Shown here: positions 13,982 to 18,564 of the stretch, piece after piece
Position numbering within the stretch: the first letter of the stretch is position 1
How the letters are laid out: every line of letters starts with the position of its first letter
From: a bacterium
GTDB taxonomy: Bacteria > Patescibacteriota > Saccharimonadia > Saccharimonadales > OMJO01
Direction of reading: 5' to 3'
DNA length: 34,542 nt
Assembly: GCA_900299395.1 (NCBI GenBank)
Contig: OMJO01000022.1
Coordinates: 1 to 34,542 of the forward strand
The notes under the pieces: generated by a model
Database searches by the model: none
Seen by the model: only the letters and a program-made list of their open reading frames with translations
Told to the model about the DNA's origin: nothing
Position numbers and translations under genes: made by a program

Positions 13982-14671
13982 ATGAAACAGATAATCGGCA
14001 TAGTAGGTGGTACTGGTCCATTGGCTAGTACTCATTTGTGTTCGCTTCTTACTGAGCTACATCTTGTGAAGAGTGATCAGGATCATGTTCCGTTTGTGCA
14101 CATTAGCCATCCGCAAATACCTGATAGAAGTGCTTTTTTGCGCGGTGAAGGCGAAAATCCGACTGCAGCTATAGTCTCAGTCATTGAACGCTTACAACAG
14201 GCTGGTGCTACCATGGCCTGTGTTGCCTGTAATACCGCGCATGCTCCTCAGATTTATGATGAGATTTCAAGAAAAAGCCCGCTGCCACTTGTTAATCTTG
14301 TTGCTACGACAGCAGATTTTGTCATATCGTCTGTTCCTAATGCAAAAACCGTCGGTATTTTAGGTACGACTGGTACGGTGTCAGCGAATGTGTATGCACT
14401 CTACTTTGAGCGGCATCAAGTTGCGGTTAAATACCTACAACCAGACCACCAGCAACAGGTAATGCGTACCATCTATGAGATAAAGGCGTCTGGGCCTACT
14501 GGCGAGCACTCTAAGCTTATTACGGCACTGTCGGGGACACTCCTGCATTCCGGTTGTGATGCAGTTGTCCTAGGATGTACAGAGCTTAGCCTACTAGACT
14601 ACCCAACATCAAAAGTTATGTTTGATCCCGTGCGCATTCTGGCTGAACATTTGCTAGAGCGGGCAGCCTAG
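13982..14671 (+). CDS. Aspartate/glutamate-type amino-acid racemase
   Basis: A 229-aa PLP-independent racemase. Both catalytic cysteines are in place: C83 in ACVACNTAH and C199 in VVLGCTELSLL. The N-terminal IGIVGGTGPLAS is the phosphate/carboxylate-binding start of the Asp/Glu racemase (YgeA/RacX) branch; the length and GGTGP favour this branch over MurI. It interconverts L and D forms of amino acids. Being 4 nt after the dipeptidase, it could convert released D-amino acids to L forms for protein synthesis, or the reverse for cell-wall building. It meets the convergent thymidylate gene with a 4-nt gap and no visible terminator. Confidence 0.88.
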   Translation: MKQIIGIVGGTGPLASTHLCSLLTELHLVKSDQDHVPFVHISHPQIPDRSAFLRGEGENPTAAIVSVIERLQQAGATMACVACNTAHAPQIYDEISRKSPLPLVNLVATTADFVISSVPNAKTVGILGTTGTVSANVYALYFERHQVAVKYLQPDHQQQVMRTIYEIKASGPTGEHSKLITALSGTLLHSGCDAVVLGCTELSLLDYPTSKVMFDPVRILAEHLLERAA

Positions 14672-14675
14672 TTTC

Positions 14676-17030
14676 TCATTCAGCTTGATCGAGCTTTTCT
14701 AGTTTGTACTGCGTGGCTCGTTCGGCTGCTAGCCGGGTTAATTCAGGATTTTCATCTTGGTTGACGAATTTCATTGCTTCAGCAAGCATGGGGTGCCGTG
14801 CGGTAAGTTGTTCGTGCATCTGTTGTACTAGTTTACGATAGCCAGGATGGCCTTGAGGGGCTGTCCGTAGTTCATGAAAATGGAAAGCTTCACGGGCGTT
14901 ATACGTAACTGTCCAACGCATCTTATGGCCAAGCAAGGTCGCATAATGGGCTTCGTAGGTATAACCGGCGGCTTGTAGGTGGCTATAAAGGGCTGCTGAT
15001 AGGTCAAAGCATTGCTCAAATTGTTCACTTAGTCCCGCTTCTTCAATAAGTTCTGGCACATCAAAACCATAACGGGGACTCAGTGCTTGCCATTCCAGAT
15101 CGTCTACCATGCGATGCCGCTGTAAATCGCGGAAAATGCCATAATCGCACACGAGGTCCCACGTGTAGTGGGCCTGCTCAAGGGCACGACCAGGACGATG
15201 TCGTCGATTAAGGCGTTCACCCATATAAGTCGTAAAGACATCCATTTTTTTGTCTATAGACCACGTGTCGACCTCGGCTTGTATCTCGCGCAATGACATG
15301 GTGCTGTGCTCATAGAGCATGTGAGGTACTAGATCCAACTCGTTGGTTGGGCTAACTTTTAAAAGTTGCACGGACGCAGGATAGCTGCCGTACGAACCCT
15401 TGAGATATTTATCTGCCAAGTCGCGAACAGCGTGCCTTGTATTAGCAAAATAAGCTGTCATGGCACCACCGCGTTCTGGTTTGTCCGCCCGCTCGAGGAA
15501 CGTAGGGATAACTTTTCTGGCTTCAGCAAGGATTTCATCACCTGTTTTTCTCGCCTCGTGACTATCACTTGCCCGCAGTCTCATAATAAGGTTTTCGAGC
15601 GCTTGTCCACTAGCAAAGATGCCGACAGTTGATTTTGTTGACACTGGTAATACAGGCCGTACAGCATCACACGCCTGAGCTCGAATAGCTGCACGCCAAG
15701 CGCCATCTTGTTCTTCCTTTTTGACTGACGAGTTTCTGGCAAGATAGTCAGCGAGCTCATGCACCATGGAGGAATAGAGGTCAAAGATGTTGTCCATGTG
15801 CTGACGATACAGTCGCTTTGTGGCAACGTTTAACGTTTCTGGCGTATAGTATCTGTAATTACCATCGTTGTCTTTCTGGTCAAAATAGATATACCGGGTT
15901 GATTGTTCCAGATAGGATGCCAAACGACCCCACTCCAACTGTTTCGTCAGGAGGTTGCTGGCTCCTTCTACTACAATATGCTGCCCCGCAAGTTGTTGTA
16001 CTGAATCATCACCGTACGCCGTGATAACACGCTTTAACAAACCGGTGTCCTTGCCTTCGTGGACCGCAAATTCGTCCAATATGGTTATGCGCATATCATC
16101 ACCGCGTCTACTCAAACGAGCCATAGCGGCGGCAACGGTCATGGCGCTGAGCTTGTCAGTGAATCCGTAAACGTTACCTTCTGTATTGGTGACCGCTTCT
16201 TTAAGGAATTGTGCGCCTTCATTAGTTATTTGATATCGTCCCTGCTTGTCTTTGTATACGTAGGGGTTTGGTGTAACGGAAGTAGTTTTCTGCAAAATAG
16301 CCGCGTTTTCTGTACTTTTTCTCTCTGGTTTGGAAGGTAAAAGTGGCAGTACGGTACGCCACAGTATTTCGTGTATTGTATCAATATCAAGTAGTTGGCC
16401 GTCGCGCACACAGTCAAGGCGGCTGAAATCTTTCGGGAATAACTGACAAAGGTCATCGTATACTTCTACAGACTTTTGTAGATGATTGAGGTCTGCCTCG
16501 TGCAAGTCACGTTGTTTTTTGGTGTACGTACGTTCGGCTTTCTGATCCACCAAATTCTGTGCAATCTCGGCCGGTACGCGAAGCACAAACGATTTATCAG
16601 GACGAGGGATACGAAGCATTTCAAATTCCAGATTATCTAGCCAGATAAAGTATCCGCGTCTTTGTTCCGGACTAGCAAATTTGGTACCTTGATGCGCCAT
16701 GTTTGAGCCGGTAAATCTATTTGCTAGGACGATCTTGCCTTCGCTCAAAGCCTGCCTAATCTGGCTGGCGGCCTGGAAGCGATCGAGAGCGTAAAACAAT
16801 GATCCAGTGTACGGTCCTACTTGATCGGCCGACCCATAGTTGCCATTTAGGTACTCCTGTACAAAGTAACTTGAGGGCTGGTCGTACTGCGGAAAATCAA
16901 ACGTTGCGACGCTATAGCCTTCACGTTCAAGTCTTTCAGCAAGCTTTTTGAACTGCGTACCTTTCCCCGACCCATCTGTTCCTTCCAGAACTAGAAAAGC
17001 ACCTGTTTGGGAGAGGCTTTCATTGTTCAT
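14676..17030 (-). CDS. Fusion: thymidylate kinase + two ThyX-like thymidylate synthase domains
   Basis: A single 784-aa frame. Residues 1-230 are a thymidylate kinase: P-loop GTDGSGKGT (17-25), the DR(Y) motif as NRFTGSN (104-110), and a LID-like RTYTKKQRD region. Residues about 290-515 are a ThyX-like domain with GDDSV (340-344) and W-G-R-L-A-S-Y-L-E-Q-S-T-R-Y (367-380), in which the first two residues of the RHR motif are lost, plus the dUMP-site MRLR (483-486). Residues about 560-755 are a second ThyX-like domain that keeps R-H-R (638-640) and SPRY (651-654) but has lost the S-x-N-E-x-S core spacing, and keeps LRTAPQ (721-726). ThyX makes dTMP from dUMP using FAD and methylene-tetrahydrofolate; Tmk makes dTDP. 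ATG17030 is set by the ATGA overlap with dcd. Confidence 0.88.
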   Translation of the reverse strand: MNNESLSQTGAFLVLEGTDGSGKGTQFKKLAERLEREGYSVATFDFPQYDQPSSYFVQEYLNGNYGSADQVGPYTGSLFYALDRFQAASQIRQALSEGKIVLANRFTGSNMAHQGTKFASPEQRRGYFIWLDNLEFEMLRIPRPDKSFVLRVPAEIAQNLVDQKAERTYTKKQRDLHEADLNHLQKSVEVYDDLCQLFPKDFSRLDCVRDGQLLDIDTIHEILWRTVLPLLPSKPERKSTENAAILQKTTSVTPNPYVYKDKQGRYQITNEGAQFLKEAVTNTEGNVYGFTDKLSAMTVAAAMARLSRRGDDMRITILDEFAVHEGKDTGLLKRVITAYGDDSVQQLAGQHIVVEGASNLLTKQLEWGRLASYLEQSTRYIYFDQKDNDGNYRYYTPETLNVATKRLYRQHMDNIFDLYSSMVHELADYLARNSSVKKEEQDGAWRAAIRAQACDAVRPVLPVSTKSTVGIFASGQALENLIMRLRASDSHEARKTGDEILAEARKVIPTFLERADKPERGGAMTAYFANTRHAVRDLADKYLKGSYGSYPASVQLLKVSPTNELDLVPHMLYEHSTMSLREIQAEVDTWSIDKKMDVFTTYMGERLNRRHRPGRALEQAHYTWDLVCDYGIFRDLQRHRMVDDLEWQALSPRYGFDVPELIEEAGLSEQFEQCFDLSAALYSHLQAAGYTYEAHYATLLGHKMRWTVTYNAREAFHFHELRTAPQGHPGYRKLVQQMHEQLTARHPMLAEAMKFVNQDENPELTRLAAERATQYKLEKLDQAE

Positions 17031-17731
17031 TGCACTTTTAAACCTTTTATCTTCTCCGGCATTCGACGAGCGTCTTTGTACGCCCGTGGTAACATTTGCT
17101 CTGGCTTCCACGCTGCAATAATACTGTCGAGGCTGTCACTTGTGGCAGTTTGATACTTGCCGCTCAACTTCTTGTACTCAAGGTCAACTGGGCCCGTTTC
17201 ATAGAAGACCATTTGAGCTACCCGCTCACCCACCGGTAACACAACGCTCTCGTGTTGATTCATGTTATAGATTTCCATTGTCCATCGGTTGATATACCCG
17301 GGGTCACCCCACCCCGCGTCAAGACACACGGCAACACCATTACGGCCCCATGTGCTCCGGGCCTGCATAGTGCTGGTGCCAGGGGCCTTGATACCAATAA
17401 ATTCATGAGTATGCGCCAAAATGCGCTCTCCAGGGCGTAAAACAATGATAGGATGGTCAGCTGGAATATTAGTAAATAAGGTGCGGCCGTGTTTTTTGGC
17501 CCAGTCTTTATGCTTCTCTGCTTTTTGCGGCTCGCCAAAGTACTGTTTTACCGCCTTTTCTTCCATGGGGTTATAGAAGCCACCTTCACTTGGCCGCTCA
17601 GTTCGGTAGTACCAGTTGCCTAATGTTACATCAACACTACTACCAGCTATCTGTTTTTCATTATAAGGGTGAAAAACAATATGGCCCTTCTTGATCGCTT
17701 CTTTAATCTGAATATTACTGTATACGCCCAT
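17027..17731 (-). CDS. dcd: dCTP deaminase (Dcd/dUTPase family)
   Basis: A 234-aa trimeric-type enzyme that converts dCTP to dUTP, feeding dTMP synthesis. Signatures are QARSTWGR (123-130), LDAGWGDPGYINRW (137-150), the catalytic-position glutamate E153 in WTMEIYN, and the C-terminal KLSGKYQ (188-194). It is longer than common Dcd proteins because of an insert (about residues 45-90). A bifunctional dCTP deaminase/dUTPase is possible, which would supply dUMP directly to the ThyX domains encoded next. The stop overlaps the tmk-thyX start (ATGA), and a TTGGAG site precedes ATG17731. Confidence 0.9.
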   Translation of the reverse strand: MGVYSNIQIKEAIKKGHIVFHPYNEKQIAGSSVDVTLGNWYYRTERPSEGGFYNPMEEKAVKQYFGEPQKAEKHKDWAKKHGRTLFTNIPADHPIIVLRPGERILAHTHEFIGIKAPGTSTMQARSTWGRNGVAVCLDAGWGDPGYINRWTMEIYNMNQHESVVLPVGERVAQMVFYETGPVDLEYKKLSGKYQTATSDSLDSIIAAWKPEQMLPRAYKDARRMPEKIKGLKVQ

Positions 17732-17820: not shown

Positions 17821-18564
17821 CTACGACTTGGCGATGTATGTTGCCGGCAGTAAACCCGTCTTGATGTCTGCCAGTATTTTGTGGGAGATTCCCCGTAGAT
17901 CGTCCAAACTACCGTTGTTTATCACAATAGTATCCGCGGTAATAGTGCCTCGATCTCTTTCGGTAGGGTCTTGTATATCGACCTCTTTGGACGCTGGGCG
18001 GATGATAGCCATAATCTTGCCATGTGCCTTACGAACTAGTGTGGCATCGGAAGGAAACCGGACACCACTTATAATCCCTAGTTCGACACCCGCACCAACG
18101 CAACGGCGAATAAGCTCGTCATACCATATACCTGGCCCCACTTTTAAAACTAGATAGCCTCCTAGCCACTGCAGAAAGGGTCGGTAAAATTTTTTATTCT
18201 CAGATGTGATTATTACTTGAGTGGCTTGAGGTTGCTCTTTGAGGGCGTCAAGGTATTCAAAAAGTTTTTCGTAGGCTACAGGGTCTCTTTCGATATCATT
18301 TTTTTGGACTCGTATAGAGCCAAACGTTATTTCTTTATGCAGTAGTTCCTGGGCTATTTCGGGCAAGTAGTGTAACCACTTATTGATTCCCGCTATATCG
18401 TCAGCTCGGGGTATTGACTGCAGTTTTTGATGTAGCGCATCAGCAACTTCTGCAACGAGAAATCCAGTCTCTAAATGTACTGAAGAGACATCAGAATCAA
18501 TTAGCATCGTTGCCAAGGTTGATTTACCGTGCCCAATGGGACCGGTAATACCGAGTAGGACCAT
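17821..18564 (-). CDS. P-loop kinase, deoxynucleoside monophosphate kinase-like
   Basis: A 247-aa NTPase with Walker A GPIGHGKST (8-16). The later block SGVRFPSDATLVRKAHGKIMAIIRPA followed by a D-P-T-E-R-D stretch resembles the phage T4-type dNMP kinase pattern (D-x-R-F-x-x-E-A, then R-x and H/D-x-S-E). Such enzymes phosphorylate dNMPs using ATP. The position between rplA (9-nt gap) and dcd supports a nucleotide role, so a share in dNTP supply is inferred. Dephospho-CoA kinase is a weaker alternative. The gene ends 89 nt before dcd. Confidence 0.7.
   Translation of the reverse strand: MVLLGITGPIGHGKSTLATMLIDSDVSSVHLETGFLVAEVADALHQKLQSIPRADDIAGINKWLHYLPEIAQELLHKEITFGSIRVQKNDIERDPVAYEKLFEYLDALKEQPQATQVIITSENKKFYRPFLQWLGGYLVLKVGPGIWYDELIRRCVGAGVELGIISGVRFPSDATLVRKAHGKIMAIIRPASKEVDIQDPTERDRGTITADTIVINNGSLDDLRGISHKILADIKTGLLPATYIAKS

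Follow-up and report, generated by a model that had tools for sequence, protein, structure and literature searches.

A Saccharimonadales gene joining a thymidylate kinase to a tandem ThyX with conserved division of site residues between its two copies

Introduction

ThyX is a drug target whose active site lies between identical subunits, so that one side of the site normally cannot be changed without the other. The window analyzed here, a stretch of 34,542 nucleotides from a member of the order Saccharimonadales (host genome of 705 kb, 89% complete), contains a gene that departs from this arrangement: a thymidylate kinase (Tmk) precedes two ThyX-like domains, each of which carries part of the canonical site. 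The locus raises the question of whether such a protein could make thymidylate, and if so, how two unequal ThyX copies on one chain would share the work.

Results

Architecture of the fusion gene

The features of the locus are collected in Table 1. Within the frame, Pfam recognizes one Thymidylate_kin domain (residues 15–178, 65 bits vs. a cut-off of 27) and two Thy1 domains, as proposed in an earlier note made from the letters of this DNA. The two Thy1 matches were scored separately, and each exceeds the Pfam cut-off of 24.8 bits alone, such that the profile search finds two ThyX domains rather than one. The equivalog model TIGR02170, by comparison, does not reach its cut-off (67.1 bits for the whole protein, with 87.9 bits required), and the RHR-x7-S motif is absent from any single stretch of the polypeptide, RHR occurring in copy 2 only and a properly spaced S-x-R-Y in copy 1 only. 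Because both of these signatures fail, the most fitting name for the protein is a split-site tandem ThyX variant, which would be expected to work like ThyX.

Table 1. Features of the fusion gene and the adjoining deaminase gene (positions in the window; residues numbered in the fusion protein; Mtb, M. tuberculosis ThyX)
Feature	Position	Strand	Description
Tmk-ThyX-ThyX fusion gene	14676..17030	(−)	Single frame, 784 aa; ATG at 17030, last codon ends at 14679, stop 14678–14676
Thymidylate kinase domain	16413..16994	(−)	Residues 13–206 (NCBIfam dTMP kinase); closest subfamily PRK07933 (M. tuberculosis type)
Kinase P-loop E16-GTDGSGK23	16962..16985	(−)	G17, G20, G22 and K23 invariant in 33 aligned fusions
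Kinase N104-R105	16716..16721	(−)	Replaces the usual D-R; common to most fusions of the PRK07933-like subfamily
ThyX copy 1	15501..16139	(−)	Thy1 match, residues 298–510, 72.3 bits
Copy 1 W367-G368	15927..15932	(−)	In place of the canonical R-H of RHR (Mtb R95-H96); FAD side lost
Copy 1 E375-Q-S377-T-R379-Y380	15891..15908	(−)	dUMP side kept: Mtb Q103 position, S105, R107, lid Y108
Copy 1 R458	15657..15659	(−)	Mtb R172 equivalent; kept in copy 1, mostly Q in copy 2
ThyX copy 2	14790..15215	(−)	Thy1 match, residues 606–747, 67.0 bits
Copy 2 R638-H639-R640	15111..15119	(−)	Canonical RHR (Mtb R95-H96-R97), FAD side, kept
Copy 2 N711-A-R713	14892..14900	(−)	Mtb N188 and R190 equivalents; R190 is the second-subunit FAD contact
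Copy 2 R722	14865..14867	(−)	Mtb R199 equivalent, dUMP contact of subunit A
dCTP deaminase-family gene	17027..17731	(−)	Directly upstream; stop overlaps the start of the fusion as ATGA (4 nt)

Purifying selection acts on each of the three domains, with pN of 0.09–0.18 and pS of 0.76–0.94 in six close pairs; pN is set against pS without a dN/dS ratio, as synonymous sites are saturated. Promoter and terminator scans around the fusion gene gave results at chance level. On the other strand, a convergent aspartate/glutamate racemase-family gene (13982–14671, plus strand), with a match to NF052483 (cysteate racemase) just below the cut-off, ends four bases from the stop codon of the fusion.

Site residues in the two ThyX copies

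In M. tuberculosis ThyX, each site is built by three subunits: A supplies R95, H96, R97 and R199; B supplies S71 and R190, the latter an FAD contact; and C supplies R87, S105, R107, the lid residue Y108 and the backbone of Q103 (PMC6514825). The profiles of both copies match solved ThyX chains, that of copy 1 the M. tuberculosis chain 3gwc (E = 3.5e-11) and that of copy 2 the T. maritima chain 1kq4 (E about 1e-8), and residue equivalences were set by aligning the copy profiles to these two chains. Conservation was scored over 144 aligned frames in four groups: two fused sets of 39 and 49 frames (which overlap in 15 identical ThyX parts, leaving 73 distinct), 31 unfused frames from Patescibacteria and 25 from Actinomycetota/Chloroflexota.

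Copy 1 retains the dUMP side of the site. The equivalents of S105, R107, Y108 and R172 are present in 100% of sequences in all four groups, and R95 and H96 are lost in nearly all, with W, D or other residues at the R95 position. The S71 equivalent (B role) is retained in copy 1, and at the R87 position (C role) copy 1 has N in almost every fused form, including N359 of the window protein. In the Actinomycetota/Chloroflexota group, copy 1 likewise carries R at the R199 position. The copy 1 residues named in the earlier note (W367-G368, R369, S372, E375, S377, R379 and Y380) are all found where it placed them, although S372 is not a conserved site residue, being A or S in relatives.

In copy 2, R638 and R640 are 100% conserved in all four groups, H639 is found in 90–100% and the R199 equivalent in 96–100%, and the R172 equivalent is lost from most sequences (replaced by Q or others). 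The R190 equivalent is retained in copy 2 of the fused and Actinomycetota groups, and the N188/R190 pattern is mixed in the unfused Patescibacteria. The proposed retention of R638-H639-R640 and displacement of R653-Y654 by three residues in copy 2 were both confirmed. Its S-x-N-E-x-S core is altered, as had been claimed, but the displaced S/T-P-R-Y string is still conserved within the fused clade, whereas the wider family does not retain it.

Throughout the tandem family, in Patescibacteria, Actinomycetota and Chloroflexota, copy 1 is C-like (dUMP side) and copy 2 is A-like (FAD side), and the reversed division was found in 0/144 aligned frames. The same order is seen among 17 further divergent proteins where both motifs are recognized in place, with S-x-R-Y first and RHR second; in L213 and a few others of the 17, the order is unreadable by the same criterion. 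L213 itself (genome G262) is a 410-aa Thy1 protein whose motifs depart from the usual tandem pattern. When the two copies of the window protein are combined, equivalents of RHR, S105, R107, Y108, R172, R199, R190, S71 and E74 are present, and that of R87 is absent. The role of the third subunit (B) is not cleanly divided, since its two residues are retained on different copies, S71 on copy 1 and R190 on copy 2; the role could be played by copy 2 of the other chain, if the conserved G614-R615 there substitutes for the lost S71. The earlier proposal of composite sites thus holds insofar as the residues of each copy match the A and C roles of the M. tuberculosis enzyme across the family, but it does not extend cleanly to the B-role residues. 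Taken as a prediction from these alignments, composite active sites formed by both copies are well supported, and the division appears as an old, fixed division of labor across at least three bacterial phyla. The term “complementary decay” used in the earlier note is therefore wrong, as conservation across the family is at odds with a loss in the host genome alone.

The kinase domain and its replacement

Although PRK07933 is the closest subfamily, the kinase falls short of the curated NCBIfam equivalog cut-offs for both PRK07933 (126.7 of 193 bits) and TIGR00041 (64.5 of 83.25 bits). The altered DR motif described in the earlier note (N104-R105) is present. The fused kinase is the sole Tmk in 16/24 fused genomes, and eight of these 16 carry the N-R form, which is consistent with N-R occurring in an essential dTMP kinase; the motif is probably a feature of the lineage rather than a loss of function. 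A second Tmk-family kinase of 199 aa is encoded on contig 23 of the host genome (L004; 1453–2052, minus strand), next to a NUDIX-like gene. It scores 46.8 bits to TIGR00041, which is below the cut-off, and a second Tmk is absent in two thirds of the relatives tested.

By best match, each N-terminal kinase of the fusions is either PRK07933-like, the type seen in the window, or TIGR00041-type, and the two types are intermixed on the ThyX tree, where the well-supported branches force one change and the best tree needs seven. Because two dTMP-kinase subfamilies hold the same N-terminal place, the kinase was replaced at least once by that of another subfamily, with the fusion retained. This replacement and the gene neighbors described below show functional linkage only.

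Genome context and thymidylate supply

The overlap between the start of the fusion and the stop of the dCTP deaminase gene (Table 1) points to probable coupled translation of the two genes. A dCTP deaminase gene is the immediate upstream neighbor, on the same strand and at most 64 nt away, in 43/48 related loci (those with enough upstream sequence). Between the genes for ribosomal protein L1 and dCTP deaminase, a further gene (17821–18564, minus strand) has a weak match to deoxynucleotide monophosphate kinase (PF21448, 30 bits), and a relative of it occurs near the fusion in about ten related loci.

Most fused genomes have no other recognizable source of dTMP. A search of the host genome found no further Thy1 and no ThyA. 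ThyA is absent in 23/24 fused genomes, and the remaining one has a partial match. This match, in genome G298 (contig 1, 56831–57160; positions 108–219, 38.7 bits), occurs alongside the fusion and may represent either a remnant or a ThyA-like hydroxymethylase. A clear thymidine kinase is found in 4/24 fused genomes, a count that leaves out matches of 18–22 bits inside much longer frames, and serine hydroxymethyltransferase (SHMT) is found in all 24. In six larger genomes of Actinomycetota/Chloroflexota, an unfused tandem ThyX is the sole Thy1 protein, and ThyA was not found in any (6/6). Some genomes of the order lack ThyX entirely.

Distribution and history

In the order of the window, Thy1 is found in 175/294 genomes, and in a large share of these a single frame of about 740–860 aa carries two matches behind a kinase; 39 such long frames, from 21 family codes, were aligned. 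The comparison across Saccharibacteria called for in the earlier note finds the Tmk fusion to be widespread in the order, in at least 21 families. In the phylum, Thy1 is found in 101/286 genomes, many with two matches per frame of about 460–610 aa. A scan of named genomes adds further fusions in Candidatus Saccharibacteria, as well as unfused tandems in Acidimicrobiia and Dehalococcoidia with 40–44% identity. One Dehalococcoidia locus (L160) shares 42% identity over residues 264–781, and its copies 1 and 2 group with the corresponding copies. Within the same order, one family (f2; L092, L093, L058 and L059) differs from the rest in having an unfused tandem, a single ThyX or none, and some of its unfused tandems have R-G-R in place of R-H-R in copy 2. 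In a search of a viral collection, the only tandem ThyX relative found is an unfused one on a viral contig of 60.9 kb (L229), with 39% identity over residues 265–770.

Phylogenetic analysis of 36 pairs and 15 single ThyX sequences places 33 of the copy 1s in one clade and 33 of the copy 2s in another (SH-aLRT of 100 and 99), with similar branching in both, and three divergent pairs lie elsewhere. AU tests do not reject an origin of all 36 pairs by a single duplication. A second independent duplication (G004, G217 and G266) is hinted at by the free tree, but trees constrained to keep all copy 1s or all copy 2s together are not worse (AU p of 0.62 and 0.57), and this candidate was set aside. The data are explained by one ancient duplication after which the site was divided, leaving a second duplication unneeded.

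Discussion

Proposed mechanism and alternatives

We consider it likely that the protein combines the activities of a thymidylate synthase and a dTMP kinase, with the two ThyX copies serving as non-equivalent subunits of composite sites. The two domains would be products of an old internal duplication, and two chains would assemble into a pseudo-222 tetramer (copies 1, 2, 1′ and 2′). Each working site would combine the FAD-binding RHR and the dUMP-contacting R722 of copy 2 with the dUMP-side S377 and R379, the lid Y380 and probably R458 of copy 1. The other two interfaces, without either set, would be dead, giving two working sites rather than four. The neighboring dCTP deaminase would supply dUMP, directly or via dUTP; ThyX would turn this into dTMP, using methylene-tetrahydrofolate, FAD and NADPH; and the kinase at the N-terminus would phosphorylate dTMP to dTDP. 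We infer the quaternary structure, the intrachain interface, the catalytic activity and any hand-over of dTMP; the sequence and the published structures of relatives are the basis for predicting a composite site, how many sites there are, how the chains are arranged and whether dTMP is channeled. The most specific form of the proposal is tentative, and we would sooner expect it to need revision than to hold in full: an obligate pseudo-tetramer, in which a pair of chains has exactly two composite sites and dTMP goes to the kinase of its own chain, would form a compact dCTP-to-dTDP unit with the translationally coupled dCTP deaminase, and would have exchanged its kinase while keeping the fusion.

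The composite-site reading has to be weighed against one in which complete sites are built from a single copy, most likely copy 2, pairing with its counterpart, while the other copy is only structural. Copy 2 does keep RHR, N711, R713 and R722 as well as, in the fused clade, the displaced S/T-P-R-Y. However, S377, R379, Y380 and R458 of copy 1 are the most strictly conserved residues of all (100% in every group), and a structural copy would need none of them, whereas the S-x-R-Y of copy 2 is not retained beyond the fused clade; we regard this alternative as unlikely. Slightly less probable again is a changed function of the double ThyX, which might act on another nucleotide or be a regulatory flavoprotein, with dTMP salvaged from outside. 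Such a change would suit reduced genomes, some of which encode a clear thymidine kinase (4/24) and some of which, within the order, lack ThyX, and it has a precedent in PolB, a ThyX relative known to act on UMP. It sits poorly with the lack of both ThyA and a clear thymidine kinase in most fused genomes, with the fused dTMP kinase and the dCTP deaminase directly upstream, and with the six larger genomes of Actinomycetota/Chloroflexota that have the unfused tandem as their only Thy1 and in which ThyA was not found.

If each copy is read separately, several canonical motifs are altered, as might be expected of a decaying gene or an annotation accident confined to the host genome. The relatives all share these changes, however, their frames are intact and all three domains are under strong purifying selection, and we assign this explanation a negligible probability. 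A recent pseudogene or a chance frame is ruled out by near-invariance across the order together with the low pN (0.09–0.18).

Comparison with known systems

The closest precedent lies in the Chloroflexi, which, with the exception of Dehalococcoides, hold only a domain-duplicated, uncharacterized ThyX, as remarked in passing by Valas and Bourne (2009; PMC3224940). Like the tandem described above, this form is reported there as an internal duplication and the only thymidylate synthase of the genome, and since the Dehalococcoidia and Acidimicrobiia members align at 40–44% over both copies, the Chloroflexi form and the tandem part of the fusion very probably belong to the same family. In contrast, neither a split of site residues nor a fusion to Tmk is mentioned in that passage (PMC3224940). 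The novelty suggested in the earlier note is accordingly narrower, as a duplicated ThyX was noted in 2009 (PMC3224940). Searches of the open-licence literature found no description of the Tmk fusion or of a split site, and a subscription paper may exist.

Compared with stand-alone dTMP kinases (TIGR00041; PRK07933, including M. tuberculosis Tmk), the fused kinases belong to the same subfamilies and share the P-loop, but they are joined to ThyX, and those of the PRK07933-like type mostly have N-R instead of D-R. With canonical ThyX (T. maritima TM0449 and M. tuberculosis ThyX; PF02511, TIGR02170), the likeness is that both copies match by profile and that most site residues are present once the two copies are added together. 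The canonical homotetramer has four identical sites and no kinase attached, whereas here a kinase is attached and the RHR and S-x-R-Y halves lie on different copies, because of which four identical sites would be impossible in the fusion.

With the FAD side and the dUMP side on separately mutable copies, each side could be tested alone. The protein would represent a clear case of an oligomeric enzyme whose site was divided after duplication, with the division kept in at least three phyla, as well as an enzyme for two steps of one pathway that is characteristic of an entire order of reduced bacteria. A parallel exists in the monomeric dUTPase of herpesviruses, in which duplicated domains on one chain divide the motifs of the inter-subunit site of the oligomer; the fold and the enzyme are unrelated to ThyX, and the comparison is one of analogy only.
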